In this document: in pieces, positions 896-25,800 of the stretch
Numbering within the stretch: the stretch's first letter is position 1
How the letters are laid out: the number at the start of each line of letters is the position of its first letter
Source of the DNA: Euonymus europaeus
Lineage: Eukaryota > Streptophyta > Magnoliopsida > Celastrales > Celastraceae
NCBI GenBank assembly: GCA_963580455.1
Contig: OY756957.1
Location: 9,181,001-9,245,000, forward strand
Direction of reading: 5' to 3'
Length of the DNA stretch: 64,000 nucleotides
Notes under the pieces: generated by a model
Seen by the model: only the letters and a program-made list of their open reading frames with translations
Database searches by the model: none
What the model was told of the DNA's origin: nothing
Position numbers and translations under genes: made by a program

Positions 896-3089
896 TTACA
901 TAGTATTAAGAGCCGAACAATTCCTCTTGTCATGTGATTGCCCTGTTAACCCACAACCATGACAATGCCGTATCTTTTTTGTTGCAGGTTCTTTACCTCC
1001 CTTTAGTCTTTTTCCACAACCTTTACAGGGTCGTTGTAAACCGGTTGTGAAAGAGCAACACTAGGTACAGAAGATTTTCCTCCACCATTTGGCGTCATTG
1101 TTAAGATTGTATTGGAGTAACTCCAACATCTCAATTGCAACCTTATATGTGTCATTGTTAACCAATGCGGCCTCGACAATACTTCTTGTAAGCTTACTTA
1201 ATGTAGGATGCCTCAAGACTAACCCCAACCCTATCTCTTGACTGCCTCCATAGGAGCACATAGATTTTGCAGATTTGGTCCACCTATGTAGTACATATAT
1301 ACTAGGCAGTGGAGCATGCAATTGCACCCTACTAAAAGCTGCAAATATGTGGTGACATATGAATCCACATGACTCAAACTTCTTACAATTACAAGCCATA
1401 CGACTCAACGATTTATCCTCAATGACTACTCTCACACTTTGTAGACTGCTATCAACCCTCCCAACATTATAGATGCACAAGCCCTCTCCCTCTCCCTCAT
1501 TCTCAATTCTTGCAATATATGTCATGCTTGAAACAACTCATCTTGAACTTTGTAAAATATAGAGTGTGTGTACAACTCACTCATGGACTTCTCTATAGAA
1601 AACATAGTCTTCGTAATGGGTTGTTCATTGATGTCTTTGTGATCCAAAGAAATCTCTTGATGTCTTTGATGTTTGATTGCTCTGGCAAGCCTCACCATAA
1701 ATCCATCAAAGAATTTTTCTTCAAAATGTAAGACTTCAAAAAAGCGTGACAATTTTCTGCCCTTTGACTGCTAAACATACCTACAAAACAATCACAAATG
1801 TCAATAAATGGCAAAGCAAAAATGGAGTACTAACAACCGGTTATAAAAGAATAGAATACCTGCATAAAATGTATCATTAATAAATGCAGGAATCCACTTG
1901 GAGCGAATGTCATAAATTATTTTTAACCATTCATTGGTCGACAAACCACTGTGCTCAATAATTTCACTCCACTGGATTTCAAATTGTTCTGGAGTCTCTA
2001 AGTTCCATATTGACTTCTGAAAGCGATGATAGTAATCTTTTTGTTTTATTGCATCTAACTTCTTTGAAAATTTGTTTAGAATATGCCACATACATAATTT
2101 ATGCACAGTGTTCGGCAGTATTTGAGCTATGGCTTTGGCCATTGCGGGATCTTGATCCGTGATAATCATTTTGGATTGGCCAGTTGGCATCGCCGACAAT
2201 AACTGCTGAAAAAGGCATAAAAATGACTCGGTCGTTTCATAACTCAAGAATGCACATCCGAAAAAGGTCGTTTGTCCGTGATGGTTGACTCCAACAAATG
2301 GTGCAAATATCTATCGTATCGAATTGTATTAGAAGTAGTATCAAATACTATGACATCTCCGAAAGTATGATATGCATTTCTACACCCTACATCTGCCCAA
2401 AAATAATGAGTTAACTTATTTTCTTCATCCATATCGATTGAAAAATAGAACTTATAATTAATTTCCTTTTCAACCTCAAAATACTCATATAACATTTGAG
2501 TATCATGTCCAACATACAATTTAGCCTCATCCCGTCTAGAGTTGTAGAAATCTTTCTCAGTACACCCAATATTATCAATACTTCCGATCTCTAATTCCAA
2601 AATACTAATTTATTGGTGAATTGACACAATGGTTGTACTAAGTTGTTGTGTCAAAGCATTCTTTGTCGGACGCATTGATCGATGAGACTGTAGCAAATGC
2701 ACTTTTTGTGGCGTAGTAAGGTTGTGATTATGGACCTCACAAAATTTTGAAACAATGAACTTTTGATTGACATCTGACTTCACAAGAGTGATCTTAGCAT
2801 TACACCCTTCTCTAGTTAATCCATGTTTTCTTTTTGGAACATAATTTGAGTCCTTAACTTCTCGAGTCCCTTGATTATAGCAAACAAATTCCCGCCAAAT
2901 AATTTCATTACTCTTATTTTTCTTTGTAGTCCACAGCCGATTACTAAATTCGGCTTCCCTTGCATATTCATTATAGAAACGTTGAGTATCATCCAATGAA
3001 TCAAATTGTTGCCCAATTTTAGGAATGACTTCAAACCTTACTTAAGGAACAAAAGTTATATCATTACATGAAGTCGAACCCATATCCAT
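896..3089 (-). pseudogene. FAR1/FHY3-related (FRS-like, Mutator-derived) protein, broken
   Basis: The order of domains is that of FAR1-related sequences, transposase-derived transcription factors and relatives of Mutator transposases. A FAR1 DNA-binding domain (about 2990-2650, C..C..HNH zinc-binding pattern) is followed by the MULE transposase core (about 2450-1860, with ITDQDPAM and CMWHILNKF). A SWIM zinc finger (CNC..CHH, about 1405-1340) and a C-terminal cysteine cluster (HCHGCGL..HDKRNC, about 1050-900) complete it. A 79-bp GT..AG intron at 1859-1781 restores the expected frame. Breaks: a stop near 3045, an in-frame stop at about 2611, a frameshift near 2320 and frame changes around 1525. 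The start at 3089 is the first ATG upstream of the domain. It could be a host FRS gene copy or the core of a FAR1-type MULE; no terminal repeats were found. Confidence 0.85.
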
Positions 3090-4300
3090 TTGTGACACTA
3101 CATTATAATAAATTCAAAAAAAAAATACATCAATTGGATGGATTTAAAACATAACATGGTTTAGCCACAACAAAGAAATGCTCAGATTTAATAAACTAAA
3201 ATGAATACATCCACTTGAAGCCATAACCAAAAAACCATGTTCTAGTTCACATTCCACAAACAAGTCACAATTCAACCAAAAAACCATATTCATATCACAA
3301 TTAACCATGCAATACAGAGAGCCAAGAAGCATTACCAAGAGGAACCAAAATAGAAAACCATTATTCAATAGCAAAATAAAAAAACCTAATTGCAAGTCAA
3401 ATATGGGCTTGTCTAACCCGAGCAGAGGAGAAGAACTGCCGGAAGAAAGAAACGCATTGACGTGTATGAGAACCCGAGCTGCGATGGAGAACACCGAGCT
3501 TAGAAGAAGACAGGCGCGATAAGATAGACAATCCAAGCTGAAGAAGACAGAGAAAGGAGGCGCGAGACGGCTTCTGGAGAAGACGGAGAGAGGAAATCGC
3601 AGAGGAGAAGTCTCGTTCGTTTTGTGTGAGGTTGGGCTGCTGGAGAATAGATAGGATATTTCCTCACCCGTTAGATGAATCTGATGAACAAGAAGAGAAG
3701 TCTGCATTTTAAGCCCTTAAAATGAGTTTTCATGAGAGAAACTTCCTATATATACATATGTGTGTGTATATATATACACTCACAATTATATATATAATTA
3801 TATATGTGCTAAAAAATATTGTAGGAAATGATATATATATATATATATACATATATGTCTATCCAATATATAATAAAAAATAAGTTTATATTTAAATATA
3901 AAACTCCAGTAATAATTATTTTTAAAATCAAACATTGAAGAACAAATCAGGAAAGTAATTTACAACTCATTGCAATTTAATTACTAGTAATAGGATTCCT
4001 ATTACGAGTAAAAATCAATGAAACCAAATGGGCCCTAAAGCCCTATCTCATAATTATATGGGGAATTTGCAAGTCGGTACATCATTATGGACTTTTCATC
4101 ATGTCACGTTTGATAATATTTGATACATTTATGATTAATCTATGATACCATCTTGACTATGTTGAACACTAAGATTCCATGTGAGAATACTGCTTCAAAT
4201 TGATGATAATTTATGATAACCTGGTGATTGTTTTGTGATACCTACGTGATATCTCTATGATATCCACCAATGGAACGTAAGGGTATCACAGAATCAATAC
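3090..4300. other. Gene-free stretch upstream of the FAR1-like pseudogene
   Basis: No convincing gene. On the minus strand 3700-3450 is TC-rich and could be leader of the FAR1-like gene; open frames here look like chance. TA microsatellites lie at about 3755-3850. The end of the block (3985-4036) reads, on the minus strand, GGGCCCATTTGGTTTCA, a terminus typical of plant DNA transposons, but no partner terminus was found. Confidence 0.4.
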
Positions 4301-10809: not shown

Positions 10810-11903
10810 TGAGAAACATAAGTGTGTGGATGAACAAAGCGTATCACACTAAATTCAAAAGTCTTCTAAATATGGAGAAAATATTGAAGCATGAAGATAT
10901 TCAAGTGGAAGCCAGGCCGATGGGGGGATGTCAAGTTCTACAAACCTTCATGACCAAGGAAGAGATGGCTAAAACCCTGGCAGAGAGACACTGACTCAGA
11001 AAATGGTTCAGCCTGATAAAACCATGGCATGAGACTGCTACATGCAGGGGACGGTATGTGTGGTTGCGCTTCTAAGGTGTTCTGCTTCATGTCTGGAACA
11101 ATGAGGTTTTCATGGATATGGCCACAAAATGGGGACAATATGTTACCTCTAACTTGGATACAGTAGAGAAAAAACATATTGATATTTGGAGAGTATTGAT
11201 CTCTACCACTGAGAAGGCTTTGATACAAGAAATGTTTAAACTTGGAAGTGGATGGTAAATTATATTCAATCATTGTCATTGAAGAGCCCAATAACTATTT
11301 CTATTCAACTCCATTCAATAAACTTTCAAAAATTCCTATGGTTGATAAATCTGGATTACGTCAAAGGTCTGGAGAGGGGAAGAATGATGACTTGAGGGTG
11401 GCTGTAGAGGGGAGAGCGCATATGCAAAGTGAGGATATTGAAGATGAAGAAGTGATTAGAGATGAAGATGTGATTGAAGAAGTGAATCGGAGCCATGTCG
11501 TAGAACATGATGCGGAGGAAGGAGTTCGGAGTACGATAGTGGCGCAGTTGACTGAGAGTCAAAGTGCATAAGCATTAGAAATTCAAAATCCAAACAATTT
11601 ATGAATTCTTCATAAAGAGGTTTCCCAACAAACTGGTGTTAGTCCCTATTTGGGACACCCTAGTGGCAGTGTAGCTCAGGGTATAGACAATGCTGGATGT
11701 GATGGGTTATATCAAACTAAAGGTGATAGGCCAATGGAAGCTGTTAGCCTAGATAATTTTGACAATGTTTCTAAGCCCATGAGCCCAATAGGCGTCTTAC
11801 AAACTGAAATAGGAGAAAGCTCTAATTGGATGGCAGTAGGCTCAAATGAAAATACATCCATAGAAAGGTTTCAATCTGATGACTCAGTTGCTAGTATTCC
11901 ATC
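10810..11903 (+). pseudogene. LINE-1 ORF1, left part (DUF4283 nucleic-acid-binding protein)
   Basis: The translation follows LINE-2 ORF1 in order: a lysine-rich start, the MGG.QVL.TF motif near 10920, WFSLIKPWHETAT near 11000, LLHVWNNEVF near 11085, then the IIVIEEP segment near 11270. This is the DUF4283 domain of plant L1 ORF1 proteins, followed by a poorly conserved acidic linker (11340-11900). A stop at 10992 and frame changes near 11070 and 11230 break it. The first part of ORF1 (an RRM in LINE-2) is missing. The frame ends at the MULE insertion and resumes at 22416. Confidence 0.8.
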
Positions 11904-12009
11904 GGGTATTTTGGAAAAGTAGTACTTTTGAAAAGTCACTTTGTAAAAATAACACTCTTTTTCAAACTAATGAAATCTAACACTTTTAAGACATTTTTGC
12001 CCTCATTAA
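11904..12009 (+). repeat. MULE left terminal inverted repeat
   Basis: 106 bp, matching the reverse complement of 22310-22415 with about seven mismatches counted by eye. It starts GGGTATTTTG and ends CTCATTAA. The next 440 bp up to the PB1-like ORF hold no other gene. Confidence 0.93.
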
Positions 12010-12223
12010 TATTTCTAGGCACATATACTTAACTCACCTTTGTGTTTGTCTCAAAAAGGCGTAGGCGACACTTTTCTTCTCTTGGAGTTTCGTTTTCATG
12101 CCAAAGCTGCTTCGCCATACAATTTTCACTCTGAAATTTGAGGTTGGTAGTCCAAAAGATCACTTACGATGTGTTGTTGTTTGGGTATGGTATGTGGGCC
12201 TGTGCGGTGCGTGTGCTATTGAA

Positions 12224-12420
12224 GTTCGAGTATCTCTAAATTTATGTTCGGATAAATGTATTTGTTTGTTCGGGTGGTATTAAATTTCAATGCTCGAGTA
12301 TTTAGAAATTTCTATGCTCGAGTATTTAGAAATTTCTGATCGAGTGCTAATTATTTTTTGCTCGAGTATTATAAAGTTTTTTTGTTCGAGTATTTAAAAT
12401 TTATTGTTTGAGCACTTTTA
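12224..12420 (+). repeat. TTCGAGTA motif array A (forward)
   Basis: About eight variants of TTCGAGTATTTA or GCTCGAGTATTTAGAAATTTC at 20-40 bp spacing. The array ends before a TTTTCAG splice-acceptor-like site (about 12440) just ahead of the PB1-like ORF, so it may lie in a 5' untranslated intron. Confidence 0.75.
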
Positions 12421-12453
12421 ATTGTATGTTCGTTTATTTTCAGTTTAATTGTT

Positions 12454-12975
12454 TTGATGAAAGAGGATTCTCAACCGAAGTCTTCATCCATTGCCATAGA
12501 ACCAAAGATGGTTCAACCAGTCAAAAAACGAAAGATTGAAGACATAATGAATAAAATGGTTAGAGCCGTTAAAAAAGACAGAAAATTTATAGCTATACTT
12601 CATCATTATGGGATTTTGCAATTCTTTCCCGGATTATCCCCTCGTGTGAAGTACATTGGAGGATTCATAGACGAGTTAGAGTTTGACACTTCTTGGATGT
12701 CCATGTCTGACATTGAATCGTTTCTTAAGGAGGATTTGAGGTATCAAACATATGATGCGTGCTACTACCAAGTACCATGCATCAAAGATTTAGAGCATGG
12801 ACTAAGAATATTGAATAACAACAATATAAGAGAGATGATTGTAGCCGTTGATGGATACCATTGCATACACGTCTATGTTACCCATATATATTCAAATGAT
12901 GACGAGCCCAATGCAGATATTGCAGAGGATGTGATATATCTTGAGCAAAATCCAATCAAGCTCCAAGAAGATTGA
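12454..12975 (+). CDS. PB1-like domain protein carried by the MULE
   Basis: A 173-residue open frame beginning at an ATG 10-15 bp after an acceptor-like TTTCAG. After a lysine-rich N-terminus (residues 1-45), residues 47-150 fit the plant PB1-like domain found at the start of many MULE-encoded proteins. Signs are a hydrophobic strand with LHHYGILQFFPG, a YIGGFIDELEFD segment, the YYQVPC..LEHGLRIL helix and a C-terminal IHVYVTH strand. Function is unknown; a protein-protein interaction role is inferred from the domain class. The frame is uninterrupted, unlike most frames in the element. It may be a separate gene or a first coding exon of a longer one; no continuation was found. Confidence 0.75.
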   Translation: MMKEDSQPKSSSIAIEPKMVQPVKKRKIEDIMNKMVRAVKKDRKFIAILHHYGILQFFPGLSPRVKYIGGFIDELEFDTSWMSMSDIESFLKEDLRYQTYDACYYQVPCIKDLEHGLRILNNNNIREMIVAVDGYHCIHVYVTHIYSNDDEPNADIAEDVIYLEQNPIKLQED

Positions 12976-12984
12976 CCATATTTG

Positions 12985-13335
12985 TAAGAACATGTTATGT
13001 TATTGCCCGAGCTGGTATTTTTATTTACTCGAGTTGTGAAGTTGTTTTATTCCAAAAATGCTAATTTTTTTACTTGAATTGGTAATTTTTGGTTACTCGA
13101 AGTAGTAATTATTTGTAATTTGAAATGGTAGTTTAATTACTCAAAATATTAATCATTTTGTTACTCGAACTAGTCATTTTGTTGCTCGTTCTCGTTACTA
13201 TTGATTACACAATATGTTAATTATATTGTTACTCGAACATAAATTAAAATTAATCGAATAGATAAATTATATACTCGAACAAATAATTTTGTACTTCAAA
13301 CAGATAATTTTTTTATTCAAACACAAAATATGGCA
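12985..13335 (-). repeat. TTCGAGTA motif array B (reverse)
   Basis: About a dozen degenerate units of TTACTCGAACTAGTAATTTTG type (the motif on the minus strand) at 20-30 bp spacing, directly downstream of the minus-strand ORF at 13743-13438. Confidence 0.7.
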
Positions 13336-13437
13336 TTCTAGATCATACTAATACATTTTAACGAGCATAACCTCTTTCATCTCATCATGAACATCTTTAG
13401 TAAGGTGAGAAAATTTTAGAAGAGATTTCTGCAGTCT

Positions 13438-13743
13438 CTATTGATCCATTTCAAAGGACTTGAACCAAGCTTTGTCTGAAAGTCGCATAAGTGATCCTAC
13501 GGAATCTTTCATAGCATTGCCCAGTTCATTGAAGCGCCTTTCAACATTGTTAAGGTAATTCTTGAGATTTTTTCTTTCAAAATTGAGATCATCCACATAT
13601 CCTCGTGGGTTCTGTTGAAATCTTAGCAGCCTCTGGTAATCTTCTTCCATTGGAGCTTGACCATTATCTATTGAAGAATATTCGTCTGCTACCCTTGTCC
13701 TTTTGGTAGAGGGAGGACCAGTGGGCTGATGAGAGGAACTCAT
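13438..13743 (-). CDS. Small MULE-borne protein of unknown function, 101 residues
   Basis: An uninterrupted minus-strand frame with an ATG start at 13743 and a stop at 13438. It has a Ser/Pro/Thr-rich N-terminus with a basic TKRTR patch (residues 14-18). Residues 35-95 are charged and probably helical (LRFQQNPRGYVDDLNFERK, then NNVERRFNELGNAMKD), compatible with a short coiled coil. It stands between the PB1-like and DUF1985 genes on the opposite strand and is flanked on both sides by reverse-oriented motif arrays. I recognise no family. Confidence 0.5.
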   Translation of the reverse strand: MSSSHQPTGPPSTKRTRVADEYSSIDNGQAPMEEDYQRLLRFQQNPRGYVDDLNFERKNLKNYLNNVERRFNELGNAMKDSVGSLMRLSDKAWFKSFEMDQ

Positions 13744-13929
13744 TGTTGAATTTATTGGAAAGTTTTCCTTGGTTTACCGGTATCATTCATTCATTGTACC
13801 CCTGTTTATAGTTAGATAAGTAGACGTGGAGAAGTGGAATACTAATTATCTTTCTAATCACGAAGAGTCACCATAGGTGCTCCCGCCATTTATGATCCCA
13901 CCCCTTCTGCTTATTTGATGGAGGAAAAA

Positions 13930-14010
13930 CATACTTGAACAAGTATATTTCTTTCTCGAACAGTTATTTAATATTTCTCGACCAATAATTTTTTTTACTC
14001 GATCAAATAT
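13930..14010 (-). repeat. TTCGAGTA motif array C (reverse, short)
   Basis: About four units (ACTTGAACAAG, TTCTCGAACAG, TTCTCGACCAA, TTACTCGATCAAA) upstream of the minus-strand small ORF. Confidence 0.6.
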
Positions 14011-14489
14011 AATTTCACTTAAATGTAATTTCACTTATTTTGTATTATTTTTATTCTTCTTCTTCTTTAAATTTTCACACTTAACAAGAAATACAAACTT
14101 AATGATGAATGACTCATGACCGTTTGAAATGACAAAATATATTATTAAAACGAGTAACTGTTCACATTCCTTCATTCCTACGAAAACGTGCAACTGCTCG
14201 AGGGTTCGCTTCCCATGGCATACATTCATTCCTGCATGACCACGCTCTTCGAACTGTCAAGCCTCTGAAAATTTCTGCAGGTAATAGTGTTTCTTTTGAT
14301 ATTGCACTCTTATTTGAGTGTTTCTTTTCATATTGCAGTCCTTTTTGTCCCATTTTCCTCTGCGACTGATTACACTGTTGGTGCACCGATTTTTTATTCC
14401 TTTTTTTGTGTTTTGGAATATTGCAAACCAGTACTTGATTTGTTCAACTTTTCGTTGAGTGTCTTTCTTTTAATCAAGTCTATTAAGAA

Positions 14490-14605
14490 TATGTTCGAGT
14501 AACATAAATTATATGTTCGAGTAACTTATATTTTCCTGTTCAAGTGTTTTAATTTTCTATTTGAGTATAAAATTTTTAATTGTTCGAGTGTTAATGTTTC
14601 GCATT
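14490..14605 (+). repeat. TTCGAGTA motif array D (forward, short)
   Basis: About five units (ATGTTCGAGTAACATAAATT and relatives), ending just before the CTCTTGCAG acceptor that opens the DUF1985 exon at about 14630; apparently intronic. Confidence 0.75.
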
Positions 14606-14629
14606 ATAACATTGTAACATCTCTTGCAG

Positions 14630-15381
14630 ATTGAAATTGAGTTATTGATTCCAGAGGAAAACCATTTCCCGGCCAGGGTTACCATATTTTCTTCAATTTT
14701 TCACGTCATCAATAGTATTAAATCCCAGTTGAATGATAACCAAAAGGAGTTGTTTCTGCGATCATGTTTTGGTATGTTCATGAACGTTGGTGATTTAAGT
14801 TGTTCAAGAAAACTTATTCACCAGATGCTTCTCCGACAACTTAGATCAGAGGAAGAAGATTTTGGAAAAAGATTGCACTTCAAATTTGCTGGAAAGATGG
14901 CCACATTTGGGGTAGAGGATTCTCTTTGATCACAGGCATATTATGTTCTAATTCATTGCCTTCTTTCTCGTCATTTGTTGATGATATTACAGTACACAAG
15001 CTCAGAAATTTGTACTTTAAGGAAAGTAATAAGAAGAAGAAGAAAGGGAAAAAGGGCATGGTGGGGGTTGATGAGGATGAATAAGGTAATGGTGGGGAGG
15101 GCAATGATGGAGATGAGGTCAAAGGCAAGGGCAGGGGTAGGATTGCGGGAATTAGCAGCGTTATGCTTGAAGAAGCATTTGAGAACTGTGAGGATGAAGA
15201 TGACAAGGTCAAACTTTCCTTGGTACACTTTGTAGAGGCTGTCTTTATGCCCAAGGAGAGAAGGAATAACATAAATATTCAGTGGCTACAATTGGTGGAT
15301 AACTTGGATCCCTTCAACAACTATCCATGGGGTACTATCTGCTTTGAATGTACTATAGACTCCCTTTGCAACGCCATGTAA
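14630..15381 (+). CDS. DUF1985 domain exon(s)
   Basis: From the acceptor at about 14629 the frame reads IEIELLIPEENHFPARVTIF, then the conserved core QKELFLRSCFGMF, KLIHQMLLRQL and LHFKFAGKMATFGVEDSL. It breaks at a stop (14927-14929) and continues from about 14995 after a lysine-rich stretch. The second half (15163-15381) carries KVKLSLVHFVEAVFMP and the characteristic LDPFNNYPWG..CFE motif. DUF1985 is almost confined to plant Ulp1-type transposon proteins; its function is unknown. A small Asp/Lys/Gly-rich insertion (15010-15160) lies between the halves. Confidence 0.8.
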
Positions 15382-15734
15382 AACAATCGAGACAAGAAGT
15401 TTAAGAAGAAGGTCGTGAAAGAACGCCTTAAAAAGGATACGTACACTCTGGTCAGATTCTCACTTGTGTTGCATGTAACCTTTGAAGCTTTAGTCATGAT
15501 ATAAGTATACAATAATGTGTTAGCATGTACTTGATTATTGTTTTTATCTTGTTGCTAGGTCTGGGCTTAGGAAGTTTTCCCGCTGATTGGGCTTAGGTAT
15601 GTATCAAAATTGGAGATAGGCAACCCAGGATTCTGAATTGGAGAAGTACTATCACGCCAAATTCAACTGAGATTGTATAGACTATTTTCAAATTTCCAGA
15701 GGTAAGACAGACATTGGATTCCCTATTCTACGTT

Positions 15735-16075
15735 AGTTCGAGTAAGTTAAATTTATGTTCGAGTTAGTAAATAAGTTATTTGAGTAACTTCAGTAGAGTA
15801 TCTTGAAATGTTTGGTCAAGTAACTTAAATAATTTCTTCGAGTAACTTTAAAAGGTTATTTGAGTAACTTTGAAAAGTTGTTCGAGTAACTTAAACATTT
15901 GATTCGTGTAACTTAAATAGGTTGTTCGAGTAACTTTAGTAGAGTATCTTCGAATGTTTGGTCGAGTAACTTAAAAATAATTTATTCGAGTAACTTAAAA
16001 AGGTTGTTCAAGTAACTTAAATAACTTGTTCGAGTAACTTAAAAAAGTTGTTCGAGTAACTTAAATATTTGATTC
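15735..16075 (+). repeat. TTCGAGTA motif array E (forward, best preserved)
   Basis: About 14 units of the form TTCGAGTAACTTAAATAATTTG, roughly 22 bp each, in direct orientation. A higher-order repeat is visible: the phrase GTAGAGTATCTT followed by a GTTTGGTC unit occurs at 15793 and 15939 (146 bp apart). The array lies in an intron of the Ulp1 gene and ends 30 bp before the TTTCTTGCAG acceptor. Confidence 0.85.
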
Positions 16076-16596
16076 ATTATAACAAGTTTATATTTTTCTT
16101 GCAGCTTGAAGTTTTAAAATTCCTCACTCCAATGGAGAGGGAGACTGAGTCTAGGTATTTTAGTAGTGTTCAAAGAAGATTTAATAAGAGGAGGGCAGAT
16201 GAGGAAGTGGCGAAGGAGAGGACAAAGAGGATGAATGATGTCATAGCAAAAGAAAATGTGGTGAAAGAAAAGGAAAAAGAAATAGAAGAGAAAGATGAAA
16301 ATGAAGAAGAGGAGGAAGAAGAGGAAAAACAAGATGAGGAAGATGAAGAAGAAGAAGAAGAAAAAGAAGTAGAAGAAGAAGAAGAAGGGAGAGATGACAT
16401 AGGAGGAGAGAGAAGGTATGTAGAATTTGATTATGGGGAGCAAGAAGAGGTGGGGAATGGGAGAGAAAGGCAGCTAAAATCATTGTATGAGATTGTGGCT
16501 GAGAGAAATGGGTTGAAGGTGGTTCACCAGCAGCTTAGTAATGATATAACTGTTTTCATATCATTCATATCAGATGGTATGGAGAAACTACGCTGA
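16069..16596 (+). CDS. Acidic coiled-coil linker exon of the Ulp1-like gene
   Basis: After the acceptor at about 16104 the frame reads LEVLKFLTPMERE, matching the VL..LTPTE block that follows DUF1985 in plant Ulp1-type proteins. A basic segment (RRFNKRRADEEVAKERTKR) follows, then about 50 residues made mostly of Glu with Lys and Asp (roughly residues 65-115). The tail is a predicted helix ending at a stop at 16594-16596. The run of GAA/GAG/AGA codons has probably expanded by slippage. It likely acts as a flexible or coiled-coil spacer. Confidence 0.7.
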   Translation: MIHYNKFIFFLQLEVLKFLTPMERETESRYFSSVQRRFNKRRADEEVAKERTKRMNDVIAKENVVKEKEKEIEEKDENEEEEEEEEKQDEEDEEEEEEKEVEEEEEGRDDIGGERRYVEFDYGEQEEVGNGRERQLKSLYEIVAERNGLKVVHQQLSNDITVFISFISDGMEKLR

Positions 16597-16779
16597 TCAT
16601 TAGTACAAATCAGTGAACTCATCCATGATGTGAATCAAAAAGGATGAGGTGATTGATAAGGCAGTGGTGATTGGTAAAGGTGATGATTATATGGTTGAGG
16701 AGTAGGGAGACAAAGACCATGCTGAACAAGGGGATGATAAGGTGGCAGAGACAAATAATGTGGTTATTGAGGAGGCTGA

Positions 16780-17000
16780 ACAGTAAACCAGTAGGGAGGA
16801 GGCTGTAGTGGGGGATGAGAAGGTGGTTGTGGAGGAGACAGATATGGAGGAGGCTGTAGTGGGAGATGATGCTGAAAGTGGGGATGAAAAGGTGGTTGTG
16901 GAGGAGACAGATAGGTAAGAGGCTGTAGTAGGGGTTGATGCTAAAATTGAGGATGATAAGGATGTCTAGGAGGCTGAGAATAGGGAGGATTGGGAGAGGG
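16780..17000 (+). repeat. Imperfect tandem repeat of an acidic coding unit
   Basis: Units reading GAGGCTGTAGTGGG.GATGA followed by AAGGTGGTTGTGGAGGAGAC recur about three times (near 16798, 16850 and 16920). They encode Glu/Val/Asp-rich peptide in one frame, now with stops. The unit is about 60-70 bp. Confidence 0.65.
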
Positions 17001-17348
17001 TGGTAGGAGATGAGGTTATCTGCGATGGACTTCTACGTTTGGCCACATACTCTACTGTAAAGTTGTGGAAGTGTCACCAAAAAAGGATGTCCAGGATGTT
17101 GAAGGCCTTCAACTAATAATTGCTGCTGCATTTCCAACTATAAGGATGGTTAAAAAAAAATATACCTGAGAAACAGGGCAGCTAGGGCACATTGGGCGAA
17201 GAAACCTGGACCATCCATGAGGACACCTTACACTTCTCCACGATATAAGAGAGTCAAGTTGGTCACAGTGAATCCTAGACCCCTCCCTACAGCAATTGTT
17301 GAAGCACACCCTCCTCCTATAAATATGAAATGGTAGTATCCTCAGAAA

Positions 17349-17660
17349 TTGGTTGATACATTCATGTCATACATGAAGAAGGATGTAGAAAATTCTCGCG
17401 CGAGCCTGGGTCCATTCCAGGTTGGTAAGGATTGGTTCAGAGTAGTCATTAGCCCAATCTCATGGTTGTCAGACACTGTAAGTACAAACGAACTGGTACA
17501 AGCATTGTATTCTCTTGGTTCATGTTTGTAAAACTGAACATTTGTCTTTGCCTTTTACAGCATATGGATATTGCTATGTACTTTATACGAGATAGAATGA
17601 AGAATAACCGACATGCACTTCAGAAGAATTCCAGTTTTCTTGACTGCATTTTCTTCATTA
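17349..17660 (+). pseudogene. Ulp1-gene block with WLSDT and HMDIAMYFIRDR motifs
   Basis: The first exon reads FQVGKDWFRVVISPISWLSDT and ends at a GTAAGTA donor (17478). After the TTTTACAG acceptor at about 17560 the next begins HMDIAMYFIRDRMKNN. This pair of motifs (PF.VG..WF....P..WL.D, then HMD..M..IR.R) precedes the protease domain in plant Ulp1-type transposon proteins. Upstream sequence (17100-17340) is coding-like in pieces but carries stops. Confidence 0.75.
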
Positions 17661-17695
17661 GTATTCAAAACCCCACATTTATATATAACTGCATA

Positions 17696-18060
17696 TTCGA
17701 GTATGTTAAATATATATTCGAGTAGGTATTGAGTAAAATTTAAAATACATTCGAGTATTTCAAAAATATGTTCGAGTAATTTTTTTTGATGCTCTTGTAA
17801 AATTTATGATATTCGAGTATGATATTCGAGTATGTTAAATATATATTCGAGTAGGTATTGAGTAAAATTTGAAATACATTCGAGTATTTAAACAATATGT
17901 TCAAGTAAATTTTTTGATGCTAGAGTACTATAGCTGTGAATTAGATGATTGTGAATGATCGAGCATGATTTCTATGATCAAGTAAAATTTTTGAATCTGT
18001 TCGAGTGACAATTATAATTGTGTTTGAGTACTAATATTAATTTTGTTCGAGTACTATTGA
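17696..18060 (+). repeat. TTCGAGTA motif array F (forward)
   Basis: About 13 units, with a clear higher-order duplication: the run starting TTCGAGTATGTTAAATATA occurs at 17696 and 17825 (129 bp apart) with the following two units. It lies in the intron before the protease exon (acceptor about 18088). Confidence 0.85.
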
Positions 18061-18089
18061 CATTTTATTTTCTTGATTTGACAACAGAA

Positions 18090-18690
18090 CCAAGTGTACA
18101 CCCATTGGAAGTAGTTCGCTGCCAAGCAAAAATGAAGAAGGCGGGTAGTGGGATGAAGATAATATGTTCCAGCATTATTTGTTAGGTGATAATCCAGAAG
18201 GTGGTGAACCATGGGCTGAACTTGAATTTCTATACTTCCCTGCCAACTTGCGTAATAAACACTGGGTTGCAGTTGAGGTCGTGATGGCTACAAAGAAAAT
18301 AAATGTGTATGACTCATTGATTAGCGCACACGATGACACTGCAATTGATCTTGCGTTTGTCCCACTGTCAACTAAGATATCTCGGATATTAGGACTATTG
18401 GGCTTAGGGGATGGCGATAACACCCCTTGGGAGGTGGAGAGGATTTCAAATATACCCCAACAGACAAACATGTGACTTTTTTTATGTTGCAATCAAGTTT
18501 TAATATAAATTTATCCCATTTTCTAATGTACAACAAAACTAATATGTAAAGTAATTTGCTTTGTTGCTCGGATTGTGGGATGTTGACAATCAAATTCATT
18601 GAATGTCTCCACGTCGATATGTCATTGAGTACGATTTCCCAGGATGATATGAGATTTTATCAGAGAAAATTTGCAATAGGATCATGGGGA
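18090..18690 (+). CDS. Ulp1/C48 cysteine-protease-like domain
   Basis: After the CAACAG acceptor the block leads into FLYFPANLRNKHWVAVEV, containing the catalytic His of the HWV motif, then INVYDSL with the catalytic Asp. The oxyanion-hole Gln is probably in the NIPQQTN segment. After the stop at 18475 and about 70 bp of non-coding sequence, the catalytic SDCGMLTIKFIECL segment (Cys at about 18560) is followed by the final helix ending near 18705. All three catalytic positions are therefore visible. The gap between QQTN and DCG lacks a clean AG acceptor, so either an intron has decayed or a small insertion has broken the gene. Confidence 0.8.
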
Positions 18691-18784
18691 CAAAAATACT
18701 CATTGTAAACAAATATTTATTTACTTGTAAAATATATTAGGGTTTAGGGTACGTATATTTTATTTTGTGTATAATTTGTTTTTG

Positions 18785-19225
18785 GCTCGAGTAGCTGTAT
18801 TTTATTTTGTGTACAACTTTTTTGGGCTCGAGTAGCTGTATTTTATTTTGTCTATATTTTTTTTGGCTTGAGTACCTGTATTTTATTTGTTCGATTATAT
18901 TAAATATTTGTTCGAATATATTAAACATTTGTTTGAGTATATTCCCAAATTTTTTTCTAGTAGCTGTTTAAGTATAGAAATTTGATGTCATAGCAAAACT
19001 TGATTAATCGAGTATAATGAGTGATCAAGTAACTGAAAATACACTGTTCGAGTGTGAATAAAGGAATTAGTGGTCGAGTAGCTTAAATATACTATTCGAG
19101 TGTGAAGAATAAATTAGTGGTCGAGTGACTTAAATGCATGTTCGAGTGAATAAATAAACATGTTTGAGTAATAACATTTATTGGTCAAGTAACATATATT
19201 TTACTGATCGAGTAAAATATAGCAA
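18785..19225 (+). repeat. TTCGAGTA motif array G (forward)
   Basis: About 18 units in the spacer between the convergent Ulp1 and transposase genes. The first three share a longer unit, GGCTCGAGTAGCTGTATTTTATTTTGT (about 47 bp apart); later ones alternate TTCGAGTG and GGTCGAGTA. All point forward, that is, opposite to the transposase gene that ends beside it. Confidence 0.8.
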
Positions 19226-19243
19226 TTGCATTCTATACCAATG

Positions 19244-21672
19244 CTATTGGCTCCTTGCATGTTTGTCTGTTGTGGCCACGTTCTCGATAACGTCCACAAA
19301 CCTCACAACAACAGTTTCACCATTTGAAGGAATTCTTTGTTGCCGTGGTCGCCCACCTTGACGTCTTGTAGCTGGAGAGAATAATTTTTTTCCATCTAGA
19401 ATTATGCATTGAACTTCAATGGCTACAGGTGAGATGGGCTCAACATATGCCACCATTATTGCCTCGTTAAAACAATATCGAGAAGACAAAGACTTAACCG
19501 ATATGTTACGTAGCCGGCTTATAGCCAATGCGTGCACACATGGTATATGGTCAAGATCAAACACCCTGCATGTACATGTCCTCGCATGCAGGTTTACCTA
19601 GCCATCACGCACGTAGTACTCGTTCTGATCGATTGGTTGAACACGCATCCTCTACGACCTCTCAGTATGCTTTTTAACTTCTTTATCGACATGCTTGCAA
19701 AGGAAAGAAGTAACAGATGCTGCCTCTACGCGGCGATCAAGAAACCATTCTTGCAGTTTTTCCCACAACTGCTCAACCAATGTTGTAATCGATGCACCGC
19801 GCACGTCGCGTAGTACGACATTTAGACATTCAACAATATTTGTTGACATTATGGTATAGCGCCTACCAACAACATGTGATCGTGACCACTTATGAAAGAT
19901 GACTTCTAACAAATAGGCATATGGTCTGCGAGCATCAACGTAACAAATCCGATTCATTAGATCCTCGAATTGTAATACTCGATATACCTTTGCAACTTTC
20001 AAATATATCGGCATAATGGAATCAAGAAACCCTTTAGCCTTTATGTTTCCTTGTATGCGCACAATGCATACACCATGAAAAGCTTCTGGCAATACTATAG
20101 AATTTTGCCTTTCAATGCTAGGATTTCTGTCTGATACTATAACTAGCTGTGAAAAATCTTCAAATGCAATGGCAGCTCTCAGTTTCTCAAAAAACCATTC
20201 TCATGATGCATTATTCTCTGAATCTCCAATCCCAAACGCAACTGGATAAGTACATTCATTGCCATCGAATGTTGTGGAAACAAATAACGTGCCCAGGTAC
20301 ATGCCCTTCAAATGAGTACCGTCAATGGAAATAATGGGCCACATTGCAATACGAAAACCAAGTAAACAAGAACCAATGGCCATGAAAAAGTACTTAAAAC
20401 GATTCCCACTATCTGACTCGATGTGAGTAACTGCCCCATAGTTATTCCTCTCCAACATTAAACAGTAATGTGGTAAGTAAGCATATGATTCTTCTGGGTT
20501 TCACCTTACTGATTCTAAGGCAGATTTCCTAGCCTTCCATGCTTTATCGTAGTTGATATTTACTCTGTATTCTTTCCGCATATCGTCTATAATGTCCTTC
20601 GGGCGGTAAACACGCCCAATGCCCTCGTGCCTGGCTCGAATATAATCCCCAACAACCTTTCTTAAGGCTTGTTTATGGCCATGATCCACAACTTCCATCA
20701 AACAAGTATGAATATTGGCAAACACTTTAACAATAAAAAGTTATGTTTCTCTTATCTTAGTCGACCTCATGCGCCACTTGCATCCAACGACAATACACTC
20801 GACCACCAAAAATGTCATGGTGGACCTCGTCACCTGGAACTGCAAGTTTTTAGTCATAGCATATATAGCAATTTGCCTCTGTAGTTCCCTCCTGTTTCTA
20901 AATACCTCACCGACCTCAAACAAACTAATTGAGCTATTGTTTGTGCTAAGCGTGTTGCTCACACTGTACTGTCCAAACTCGATGTTGCGTCCTGACACTG
21001 CACTTTGAAGGGCATTCAGAGGTGAATTTGGATTCGGGGGTTGAATCAGATCATCAGATGCTCAATTATTTGGATCATTATCGTTGTCTTCATTATATTC
21101 TATGTATCCATCATCATCATAATATTCATCTTCATGAGCAAGTCCTTCTCTATTTGGCTCAAACCATTCAAATCAAAATCCCCTGCTCTGCCCCCCTGTA
21201 CTATAAATTGGTCAATGTCCGAAAAAACAAAATGACTACGGCACGATTGTTAGGAAATGAGTGGCTATGGCTGCGTCTCTGGGACAAAGCTCTCATTTTG
21301 TGAAGGAGGATCTTCATAACGTGTTCTTGCCTGTGCTGTTAAACAAAGTGGAGTGCCAGCTCTTCATGGATCATCATTTTGCTTCACAAAGAAACGCCAG
21401 TTATCGTCATAGCGTACAACCATTGGAGGCATGTTGAAATGAGTGTTATACACGAACTGCAACACAAGATCGTCCAATGTACGATCTATGCCAGTAATCT
21501 GATATATTTTGTCCAACAACTCCTCAAACGTAGTGGAATCGTGGAGGATTATACCTTCGCTGGCACCCCCTCTATACTTGTAAGCCCCTCTAGAGATTTC
21601 CCACTCCCCACCATAGATAACCACAAAGTCAATAACTATCATAACTGTGAAATCATTAAAACATAAAGTCAA
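19244..21672 (-). pseudogene. MURA-like Mutator transposase with SWIM zinc finger
   Basis: Read from 21672 downward. An N-terminal block with a YGGEWEI..YRGGASEG start and TFEELLDKIY is followed by the Mutator DNA-binding domain (20930-20740: FEVGEVFRNRRELQRQIAIYA, C.WRMRS). Next come the W.ARKSALE segment and the DDE core. The first Asp is in IISIDGTHLKG (about 20320), the second in IVSDRNPS (about 20130) and the Glu in NIVECLN (about 19830). The SWIM finger CTC..CVH lies at 19580-19525. The protein binds element ends and catalyses transposition in the nucleus. Frames change at about 21000, 20730, 20490, 20200 and 19640, and stops occur, so it looks inactive although the three catalytic residues are in place. 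Confidence 0.88.
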
Positions 21673-21674
21673 TT

Positions 21675-21930
21675 ATAGTTACTCGAGAAAATATTATAAT
21701 TTTACTAGAACAAAAAAATAAAAGATACTCGAACAGACATAAATGTTACTCGAACATATATTGTATATTTACTCGAGCAACATGACAATACTACTCAAAC
21801 AAAAAAATTTAACAACACAAACATTAATTAACGTTACTCGATCATTTAATATAAATTTACTTGAGCATCATGAAAGAAAACTCGAACAAAAAGTTAAAAA
21901 AACTAGAACAAAAAAAAAAGTACTAGAGCT
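21675..21930 (-). repeat. TTCGAGTA motif array H (reverse)
   Basis: About ten units of GTTACTCGAACATATATT type, reverse oriented, directly upstream of the minus-strand transposase coding region, probably in its 5' untranslated region or intron. Confidence 0.8.
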
Positions 21931-22309
21931 ACTATTTTATAAAGCATGCTGATTACTGATTGATGTTTGGTTCTTGTAACAACATTACAATGTAAGTACT
22001 TCTTCAATGCAAATTATTTTCCATATGCTAAATATGTAGGGTGCACTGTTATGCTATATTGATAAGTAAGCACTCACTTGTGATATAGAGAGTCTTTAGC
22101 TGCTTGTTGGACCTGGGTACCCCGGTCTACTCTCCATCATGAGCGATGAAGGAGATGAATCATCTGTCGTTCACTTGCGATGCTTTTTTATGAGTTGCGG
22201 TAACTGTAATGATGCAGTCAAGAAGAATTCGGTATCAATCGGGGTTCTCTGTAATGCTTTTTTCTTCTTTCTTTTAGGTTTGTGCAGTTGTGCTGACTGT
22301 GCATAGTTA

Positions 22310-22415
22310 TTAATGAGGTCAAAAATGTCTTAAATATGTTAGATTTCATTAGTTTGAAAATGAGTGCTATTTTTACAAAGTGACTTTTCAAAAGTGCTAC
22401 TTTTTCAAAATACCC
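22310..22415 (-). repeat. MULE right terminal inverted repeat
   Basis: 106 bp, ending AAAATACCC, mirror of 11904-12009. It is followed immediately by the second TATTCCATC. Confidence 0.93.
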
Positions 22416-22815
22416 TATTCCATCGGGCTTTGAAAATATCATGATCTCCCCGCAAAGCAAGAGGAGGAAAGGCAAGGGGAAAAGACATAGTAGAAGGGTT
22501 GTTTGTAAGCAAATACTACTGGAGCAATGTAGAAGGGTAGCGAAAGAGGAGAAGAGGCTCAAAAAGAAACATAAAATGGGTTATCAGATCATGGGGAAAC
22601 AAATCAATTCATTATCAGGACAAAATGATCAGCAATTAAGTAAATGTAGAGCTGTTGTGGTTGATAATAGCCCTAGAAATTGCGAGAATGAAGTGCAACC
22701 CTTAATCGAAGTATGGAAAGAACTTGGTCTATCTGATCAAATGAATGACTCTGTGTTGTGCAAGCAAATGGAAGAGATTGTTACTAGGGAAGTAATGGAG
22801 GCTGCGACTAAGTAG
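22416..22815 (+). pseudogene. LINE-1 ORF1, right part
   Basis: The frame continues from the target duplication through a lysine/arginine-rich stretch (22441-22590) to LIEVWKELGLS and EIVTREVMEA before a TAG at 22813-22815. LINE-2 ORF1 ends with the corresponding WQALGLS and GIIAREVIEG. The 48-bp gap to the ORF2 ATG at 22864 is like the LINE-2 arrangement. Confidence 0.8.
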
Positions 22816-22863: not shown

Positions 22864-25800
22864 TGTTGAAAATTCTATCATGGAATTGTTGGGTTCCGAT
22901 GATCCATACACACAGCAGAAATTAAAATTTTCATCGAAACCCTCATAAGGATCCATGCGAAAGGGCATAAATAGGTGTTAAAAGATTACCTGTTGTAGCG
23001 CAGAAATCGAACGGTTGCTAGCCTTGATAGATCCGAATCAAACAGAACTATTCGAACGAACAGCGCCCCTATGGTATCCACACGAACAAAGCAAAGACCT
23101 TCTTGTCACCGTTATGCTAGTAATCGGGGAGAAAAGCACAAAACCGTTTTGCTCTCAACTCTCTATATTGCGGTTCACTCTTGTTCAAAAAACCACACTA
23201 GGGTTATCACTCTAACCCTATATATATAGTGAGCCAAGTAAAACGAAAAGCCCACATCCCCTAAAGACAAGGAGCCCACGTTTTGACACTTGACCACGTT
23301 CAATCAATCACATTAATTAAACTGGTCATGGACCCTACATCAAGCCCTAAGCCCAAACGTAATTGTTATTCTCTAATAACGTAATCTTTGACTTATTCTA
23401 TGTGTGCGACCCTATAGGTTCTCGTTACGTTGGCAGTGAAACTAAAATCGTATTCTAGCATCACAAACAATGGGAGGTATCTAGCAACACATCATTGTTA
23501 CCCAAGTAACGGGAATGTCAATGATTCGACATAACCTTTAATCATGACCAATTTTACATGCAGTCCCTTTGTCCTTAATATCTTGATTAACATCGAGGCA
23601 TGGAATGTGTCATCCTCGTATAGGTTAATCTACGTGTTTCTCAATTCCGAGTAGACTATAAACAAACGAGATCAATATCACATACTGACTCATTTTGAGC
23701 ACGGCCATGCATTTCTCAGTCTCACTCAATCAAGGGACCCACAAATATTACTCCTGTTATATAGAAGGGACAAATTCCATTTAGGTCACTCATATCCCTC
23801 CACACAATTTTTGATACACCCAATCACTGACTTTATAGCCAACCCTTTAATTTGCAGGTGACGTTAGACAGTATCAAAGTATATAACTCCTCATGTCGGG
23901 AACCGTAGTGATTTCAGGTTAAAGGACAACATATATCATCGTCACTATGAGAATAGCTTATGACATTCATATAATAATCCATGCAGTATTCTCATGTTGG
24001 GTTTGTCCAGTACTTCTGTTCTCTAACAAGTATTCATGTATTGATTTGATATCTCATATCCATGACCCATAAGATTTGGTCATCAATCAACCTACATATT
24101 AGTCTCAATGCATTAATGTTATCCCAATTAACAATAATACTTGACTAGGGACATTTAAGAATAGTGTTCTATATGCATCCATGAGGATCTCACGTTCAAG
24201 TCACACACTTGAAGTCCCATGGCATCGAACCAACTATTCTAGGGATATTTATCACAATCATTTAAATAGAGCAGATAATAAATGAAATACCTCAATATAA
24301 CATAATAAATGTATGCTAGTACAATCATTCTACGATTGGCTCCTAGGGCATACACCAACAGGAATATCAAAAGGTTAGGCAGATCTATCAAGAAGAAGGC
24401 AGTTAAGAGGTGGTTAGTAGAAAAGAAAGTTGATGTGATAGTTATTATTGAAACCAAACTAGAGGAAAATTAGTACCTAACAATTTTCGCTGCTACATTA
24501 CGGCTGTATATGGGCCAAATGAGGAGGCTTCCAAAATGGTCTTATGACAAGATTTGGCTGCGGTTTTTCCACAAATCAACACCATGGTTACTATTAGGGG
24601 ATATGAATGAGATACTAAGCCCAACTGAGCGGTCAGGACAAGTTGGAGTTACGAGAGGTATGACTGCTCTTGCTAATTTCACATCAAATTTTGGGTTAAT
24701 TGATCTGCCATTGATTGGAAGGAAATATACTTGGCAAAACTCTAGAAGTCATAGTAGAATTGACAGAGCATTCATTACAACTGATTGGTTTATCTCTTTT
24801 TCGGATTTAAAAAGTTGGGGCTTATGTAGAGGATTATTAGATCATACTCCCATCTTCCTAGATCTTGAAAAAATAAACTGGGGTCCAAGGGCCATTTAAA
24901 TCCTTGGACTGCTAGTGGCAACATCCTTGGTTCCCTACCACTGTTATAGTTTTTTCGTAGAAGATCTCTGAACACTTCCCTACTGGACGTCATGTCCCCA
25001 AAAAATTTAAACTACTAATGCAATTGCTAAAGATTTGGAATACTGAAGTTTTTGGCAATATGGACACAAAGGTGAAAGTGATTGAAGTTGAGATTGATAG
25101 ATGGGATCTTAAGGTAGAACAAAGAACTTTGTCTTCAACTGAATGTGATATTGTGAATAATCTCAGAGGAGAGTTACGAAAGGTGAGTAAGTTGAAAGAG
25201 TCTGTATGGAATCAAAAGTCTAGATTGAAATGGACTTTTGAGGGGGATAAAACACACGTTTCTTTTTCTCTATGGCATGCATCAGAGGTAATCAGAATAA
25301 GTTGTCCTGCTTAAAGTTTGGAAGGGAAATTTTCAGTGATCCTATGCAAATAAAGCAAGTGGTGCTGAAGCACTATGAGAATCTTTTCAGTCGGCCAGCA
25401 GTGATATAAGTTGGGATGGGCTGGAATTCAAGAAGTTACCTCCTAAGATTGTTGCATCTATGGAAGAGCAATGCACAGATGAAGATATTAAAAAAGTTTA
25501 TGGGATTGCGAATGCACTAAGGCACCTGGGCCAAATGGATATAATTTCAATTTCATTAAAAAAGCATGGGATATGTTGGGTGATGATATTTTTGCCATGG
25601 TTCATCATTTTTTTGCATCTGGAAAACTGCCTCAAGGGATTAACTCCTCTTTCAACACCTTGATACCAAAACTGAAAGGAGGTCGCAAGTCAAATGAGTT
25701 CAGACCAATCAGTCTTATCAACAGCCTCTATAAGATTGTATCTAAAATTCTAGCTAGAAGGTTGAAGACATCAATGTCATTCATCATTAGCTCTTCTCAA

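Follow-up and report, generated by a model that had tools for sequence, protein, structure and literature searches.

The closest described systems are the VANC proteins of Arabidopsis, anti-silencing proteins encoded by VANDAL transposons, of which DUF1985 is a domain (PMC5735166, where the legend of Fig. 5 names DUF1985 and DUF287). VANC21, encoded by VANDAL21 (Hiun), binds the sequence YAGTATTAY, which forms dense arrays of one orientation in the introns, intergenic DNA and terminal DNA of VANDAL21, while the targets of VANC6 carry AGTTGTCC/AGTTGTAC, and each of the two proteins causes sequence-specific loss of methylation (Hosaka 2017, PMC5735166). The same paper names as an open question what determines the DNA word that a DUF1985 protein selects; a crystal structure of VANC21 and co-evolution with its targets are mentioned in a meeting report (PMC8756742), and the structure is present in the PDB (9lnj, 9lnk). 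According to a review citing Sasaki 2022, VANC genes carrying Ulp1 (KIU) act likewise, recognising motifs in non-coding regions of elements of their own kind and causing hypomethylation (PMC13317346). Here a Mutator-like element (MULE) of Euonymus europaeus is compared with these systems. It lies in a 64,000-nucleotide stretch (assembly GCA_963580455.1, contig OY756957.1, positions 9,181,001 to 9,245,000; below, the window and contig C1) and contains eight arrays of a short motif, TGTTCGAGTAA, which we interpret, with a probability of roughly three in four, as cis targets for an anti-silencing system of the VANC type with its own specificity, binding and demethylation being proposed by analogy. 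The kind of system is already known from Arabidopsis; here it would occur in another genome and with a different word.

The arrays emerge from an unbiased word count. TCGAGTA leads the over-represented 7-mers within the element (41 occurrences versus 0.71 expected, with 3 outside), and TTCGAGTA reaches a log-P of -98 in the element, compared with only -14 for the best 8-mer elsewhere in the window (12 overlapping stretches of 3.9-8 kb, two-letter words excluded). Among 28 occurrences of TTCGAGTA/TACTCGAA in the window, 26 lie in the element and two (41924 and 44920) in the other 53.5 kb. This density, about 66-fold lower outside, bears out the statement of an earlier sequence-only reading that no such clusters occur elsewhere in the window, and is far from the equal density which that reading had named as a reason to abandon the idea. 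Refinement of a position-weight matrix gave the motif TGTTCGAGTAA, fuller than the word first put forward, which was too short. At T ≥ 8 the matrix yields 80 sites within the element (7.6/kb, versus 0.54/kb outside), compared with a mean of 5.1 and a maximum of 11 in 20 dinucleotide-resampled versions of the element; 74 of the 80 fall in eight arrays, at the coordinates reported earlier, and six are lone sites, making the earlier figure of roughly 80 units a fair one. Units are mostly 21-23 bp apart (47 of 66 spacings measure 20-24 bp), conserved core columns alternate with variable spacers in the matrix, and opposite-strand sites are absent from all eight arrays. The array at 15737 also has higher-order periods of 66 and 148 bp. 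No array lies in recognised coding exons, as had been claimed, but the claim fails for single sites, four of which (T ≥ 9) fall inside the 4386 bp of coding hits in the element.

Six arrays share the strand of the adjoining or enclosing gene, in line with the earlier reading. The other two, P2 and P7 (Table 1), cannot test this rule because both lie between convergent genes; only the array at 18785 had been listed as an exception, and the one at 13026 has to be added. The strand agreement of the six testable arrays, together with the position of five arrays in predicted introns or preceding candidate 3' splice sites, would suit a role in RNA, as intronic splicing or transcript-stability elements. 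The introns and splice sites are predicted gene models (for the intron filled by P5, the donor word is present in five of the seven relatives checked and the acceptor pattern in two). An RNA role nevertheless has very little probability, as P2 and P7 are intergenic between convergent genes, arrays are kept in gene-less copies, their 21.8-bp period fits turns of the DNA helix, and at another DUF1985 locus described below (L038) they oppose the DUF1985 strand.

In the genome scanned (443 Mb, 30 contigs), the exact pair TTCGAGTA-N14-TTCGAGTA occurs 133 times and its reversed control not once. Twenty loci (L009-L028) were fetched around such pairs, hence the presence of arrays there is not evidence. 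Protein pieces of the window element match 13 of the 20 by tblastn and none of the other seven, and with L013 (a weak small-ORF match only) excluded, the slots of the window element were compared with those of 12 relatives. The arrays, which the earlier reading had asked to be looked for in related copies, are present, and their common slots keep the same orientation except in the rearranged L015. The orientation bias, once counted, is consistent throughout: none of the 518 array sites in the window element and the 12 relatives is on the wrong strand, and 18 sites lie in 27.8 kb of coding hits. P2 keeps its slot and its strand in L012, L014, L018, L020, L025, L026 and L028, and P3 is found in L012, L025 and L026 and is missing or has fewer than three units in L014, L018, L020 and L028. 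Unit numbers per slot also differ (5 to 21 for P2). Over all 21 loci (the window and the 20 fetched), 79 arrays comprise 374 perfect and 360 one-mismatch units (734 in total), with 479 of 655 spacings at 20-24 bp and a best period of 21.8 bp. The commonest unit changes are G4A (52) and C3T (49), the changes expected from decay of methylated CpG, though C3A (40) and A8G (40) are also common.

The higher-order tandem periods, the varying unit numbers and the frequency of one-base variants (360 of 734 units) are compatible with a functionless, self-spreading minisatellite. As far as local tandem duplication goes, this earlier suggestion holds (66- and 148-bp periods, variable unit numbers), but its function-free version fits badly and is very unlikely. 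Eight separate sites keep their slot and strand in relatives and are nearly absent from coding hits, the spacing of about 22 bp and the strand are fixed, the core columns are conserved while the spacers vary, and each DUF1985 class has a different word.

Arrays are also found in copies that contain no recognisable gene. Five of the fetched loci (L017, L019, L023, L024 and L027; 2.2-3.5 kb) are bounded on each side by the terminal repeat and have inward-pointing arrays, with no coding-piece match. Perfect 9-bp duplications flank L017 (TAGCTGAAC) and L024 (AATAAAAAT), the duplication has one mismatch at L019 and two at L027, and none is recognisable at L023; L009 and L016 have neither coding matches nor paired ends. 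Both ends of the five copies match the right, transposase-side end of the window element, which would explain the inward orientation of their arrays. A genome search with the left terminal repeat gave at least 41 matches (best 40 of 59 candidates scored), which form a set of 27 loci drawn independently of arrays. On contigs C1-C12, for which the motif pairs listed in contig order appear complete (those of C13-C16 are partial), an exact motif pair lies no more than 11 kb from 12 of 18 terminal-repeat loci, versus 0.04 under random placement, and the same holds for at least 17 of all 27 loci. As a separate observation, the terminal repeat of the window element has a copy at C11:17439610-17441260, some 1.2 kb away from a DUF1985 match that belongs to a different clade. 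No TTCGAGTA pair is among those listed there, and the locus may be an element with a switched motif or a nested insertion.

The likeliest binder of the arrays is, we infer, the DUF1985 protein of the element family. The coding region matches Pfam family PF09331 (DUF1985) at 15085-15378 (E 8.4e-13); it is interrupted in the window by a frame change and stops, the exon is open in relatives L018 and L021, and tblastn detects DUF1985 pieces of the TTCGAGTA family at nine of the 20 loci fetched. A profile made from 12 DUF1985 stretches of the Euonymus genome, the window's included, has a single match in the PDB, VANC21 (E 7.7e-8), and the single sequence of another DUF1985 locus, L029, matches VANC21 with E 0.02. 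A search with the DUF1985 protein of a large protein set, presumably poor in plant proteins, gave 0 of 496 candidates at E ≤ 0.001.

Other DUF1985 genes of this genome have arrays of other words. The PF09331 profile gave 406 candidates, of which the best 150 were scored, all above cut-off, and 11 of these loci were examined, picked by score and open-frame length, not by arrays. Clear arrays, mostly on one strand and with short spacings whose medians are 21-22.5 bp, are present at 10 of the 11, those of L034 being weak (six exact GTTTAGAA). Read on the DUF1985 strand, the word is GGTCGTGCC at L029, GGTTTAGAA at L030, L032, L036 and L037, TGTTTAGAA at L031, L035, L039 and weakly at L034, and GGTTGATAA at L033, while L038 has GGTTGAGAA on the opposite strand, giving six word classes for the window and the 11 loci. 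Motif strand equals DUF1985 strand at the window and 10 of the 11 loci (L034 weak; L032 mixed, 38 versus 23 sites) and fails to do so at L038. Genome-wide, there are 2198 pairs of GGCACGACCA (reversed control 0) and 3136 of GGTTGAGAA (reversed control 2), and of the six GGCACGACCA clusters listed, two are no more than 10 kb away from a scored DUF1985 match, compared with 0.03 at random. ORF1, the small ORF, the DUF1985 gene and the transposase each have an array in front of them, which could point to sites of a host transcription factor exploited for element expression; such a factor would not call for a separate word per DUF1985 class, and this is the least probable of the explanations weighed here.

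Three side observations concern these families. L029, of the GGCACGACCA family, contains an open 604-aa MURA-type transposase frame (99-1910), and because of this frame and the 2198 motif pairs the family is probably young and recently active. L038 contains a 111-bp satellite-like repeat (2414-3312; 8.1 copies, 94%) composed of GGTTGAGAA units, and arrays can therefore grow by longer blocks. At C1:10141840-10149131 and C1:20626175-20629060, GGTTGAGAA arrays adjoin plus-strand DUF1985 matches (C1:10141022 and C1:20625385), with plus-strand arrays beside the gene and minus-strand arrays farther on; at L038 only minus-strand arrays were seen.

The six words resemble one another more than chance predicts, with a summed similarity of 85, whereas letter shuffles give 57 ± 3.6 and none of 5000 attains 85; when only the window and L029 words are shuffled, 178 of 5000 reach their observed similarity to the others, a modest effect. 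In the aligned register (GTTCGAGTA, GGTCGTGCC, GGTTTAGAA, TGTTTAGAA, GGTTGATAA, GGTTGAGAA) T occupies position 3 in all six, and positions 1 and 2 are G or T. In the DUF1985 tree the TTCGAGTA family pairs with L029 (support 0.999), and their words share T-C-G. A Mantel test of motif against DUF1985 gave r 0.61 (20 of 720 permutations), on six classes only and with words and register chosen by the analyst. Tentatively, and with the odds against it, the DUF1985 proteins may have in common a single ancestral site of about 9 bp, read in a fixed register, of which the start is shared and the 3' part differs by family, such that at least six mutually blind anti-silencing systems in one genome would have diverged from one code, and the CpG in the TTCGAGTA and GGTCGTGCC sites would let methylation gate binding.

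Like VANDAL21 and VANDAL6, the window family has an element-encoded DUF1985 protein related to VANC, dense non-coding arrays of one direction (8-9-bp motifs in introns, intergenic and terminal DNA in Arabidopsis), tandem duplication, and motifs that differ between DUF1985 families (PMC5735166). It differs in its motif TGTTCGAGTAA, which contains CpG and is neither YAGTATTAY nor AGTTGTMC, in having Ulp1/C48 and clear terminal repeats, and in that no DUF287 was found in the pieces scanned; binding and demethylation are established for the Arabidopsis systems, whereas the window element is known from its sequence. The KIU (Kaonashi) MULEs likewise have DUF1985 and Ulp1 in one gene region, and are described as Arabidopsis elements without terminal inverted repeats, unlike the window element with its repeats of about 118 bp and its own motif (PMC13317346). 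Spm TnpA and maize MuDR MURA also lower the methylation of their own families, but neither is a DUF1985 protein, MURA acts at terminal repeats, and the passages on them in PMC10398659 describe no intron arrays. The window element would work like a VANC system; it is not classed as a VANDAL because its terminal repeats, unlike those of typical VANDALs, are clear. In the literature compared, which left Sasaki 2022 (EMBO J, e110070) outside, no report was found of the TGTTCGAGTAA motif, its CpG, its strand pattern or six motif classes per genome, and no paper was found joining DUF1985, Ulp1 and a MULE.

In the proposed mechanism, the DUF1985(-Ulp1) protein would bind TGTTCGAGTAA units that share a strand and follow each other at about two turns of the helix, located in introns, between genes and in subterminal regions. 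Dense binding would, by analogy with VANC21 and VANC6, strip DNA methylation from the element, leading to transcription of its genes and enabling it to move, and gene-less copies with terminal repeats and arrays would be activated in trans. Arrays would grow and shrink through local tandem duplication, and motif and DUF1985 would diverge together, each family coming to activate mainly itself. That an element protein binds the arrays is the best supported of the roles suggested earlier, with DUF1985 a likelier binder than the transposase or PB1-like protein named at the time. Sites for the transposase (or a PB1-like/ORF1 protein), serving end pairing or self-regulation as subterminal repeats do in other DNA transposons, would account for the terminal repeats and arrays kept near both ends of gene-less copies, and since the transposase travels with DUF1985, co-divergence does not separate the two. 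This alternative is unlikely, given that the arrays span the whole 10.5 kb, including introns far from the ends, and that the proven binder of such VANDAL arrays is VANC (PMC5735166). DUF1985 is favoured because of its homology to VANC21 and because L030-L039 have DUF1985 with like arrays and no match to the window transposase in the 4-8 kb covered per locus.

Several observations count against a VANC-type system. All of its evidence is drawn from sequence; the transposase, as a companion of DUF1985, could be the binder; and the degenerate or missing terminal inverted repeats of VANDAL elements in the strict sense are not seen here, the repeats being about 118 bp (46-174 bp are listed for some of the VANDAL clade in PMC6446971). 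The single query L018 has no VANC21 match in the PDB at E ≤ 10. No DUF287 hit was obtained in the 10 pieces scanned, the gene being broken and the pieces part of its exons; DUF287 is not known from every VANC-type protein. The arrays of L038 oppose the DUF1985 strand and those of L032 are mixed, and spacings of 18-25 bp make up just one half or so, or less, of those in the TGTTTAGAA class (7 of 16 to 27 of 52). The 150 DUF1985 matches scored have no TTCGAGTA cluster within 10 kb of them among the 31 listed; the presumed reason is that members of this clade score lower and that scoring covered just 150 of the 406 candidates. Ten of the 27 terminal-repeat loci have no exact motif pair within 11 kb among the pairs listed (C13-C16 in part), and these may be diverged, shortened or array-free.

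If the arrays are VANC-type targets, sequence alone suffices to recognise such sites in a genome besides that of Arabidopsis, and one genome yields several DUF1985-motif pairs. Together with the VANC21 structure, these pairs could help to work out how DUF1985 chooses its DNA word; they might also provide components for the targeted demethylation of plant DNA.

Table 1. Features of the Mutator-like element and its motif arrays, in window positions
Feature	Position	Strand	Description
Mutator-like element	11904-22415	.	10512 bp; inverted ends and perfect 9-bp duplication TATTCCATC at 11895-11903 and 22416-22424
Left terminal inverted repeat	11904-12021	+	~118 bp, end-to-end alignment
Array P1	12225-12392	+	6 units; upstream of ORF1 and of candidate 3' splice site
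ORF1	12457-12975	+	172 aa, open frame
Array P2	13026-13279	-	7 units; flanked by ORF1 and small ORF, which converge
Small ORF	13438-13743	-	101 aa, open frame
Array P3	13932-14003	-	4 units; upstream of minus-strand small ORF
Array P4	14494-14590	+	5 units; predicted intron 14281-14629, directly upstream of DUF1985 exon
DUF1985 coding region	14618-15378	+	Broken; N part 14618-14926, C part 15085-15378
Array P5	15737-16058	+	14 units; fills predicted intron 15702-16104 (GTAAGA...TTGCAG) of DUF1985 gene
Array P6	17696-18053	+	13 units; predicted intron preceding C48 exon
Ulp1-type peptidase C48 exon	18149-18475	+	PF02902, E 4.2e-12 (Pfam match 18149-18472)
Array P7	18786-19214	+	16 units; between convergent DUF1985-Ulp1 gene and transposase
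MURA-type transposase	19244-21061	-	6 stops in 606 codons
Array P8	21680-21886	-	9 units; upstream of minus-strand transposase and of candidate 3' splice site
Right terminal inverted repeat	22298-22415	-	~118 bp; 94% to left repeat over 108 bp

With a MURA-type transposase, a 9-bp target duplication on both sides (a MULE hallmark) and Ulp1/C48, the element is, on these sequence features, a MULE with an Ulp1 domain. The transposase contains PF03108 (DBD_Tnp_Mut, E 4.9e-8) and PF04434 (SWIM, E 2.1e-8), both over cut-off, while its PF10551 (MULE) pieces fall below cut-off; in L029 the MULE domain reaches E 1.1e-22. The window copy is probably dead because its DUF1985 region and transposase frame are both broken, and any activity of it must therefore come from relatives. 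ORF1 (open reading frame 1) has no Pfam family at E ≤ 1 and the small ORF none above cut-off, and Rfam gave no match over gathering scores. The two ORFs are conserved in relatives, with up to 89% and 86% amino acid (aa) identity, respectively (tblastn), and ORF1 may perhaps occupy the place of VANB. Near the element, the window has a weak endonuclease match at 24474-24896 (PF03372, E 4e-4, below cut-off), and the element may sit in an older copy resembling a LINE (long interspersed nuclear element).

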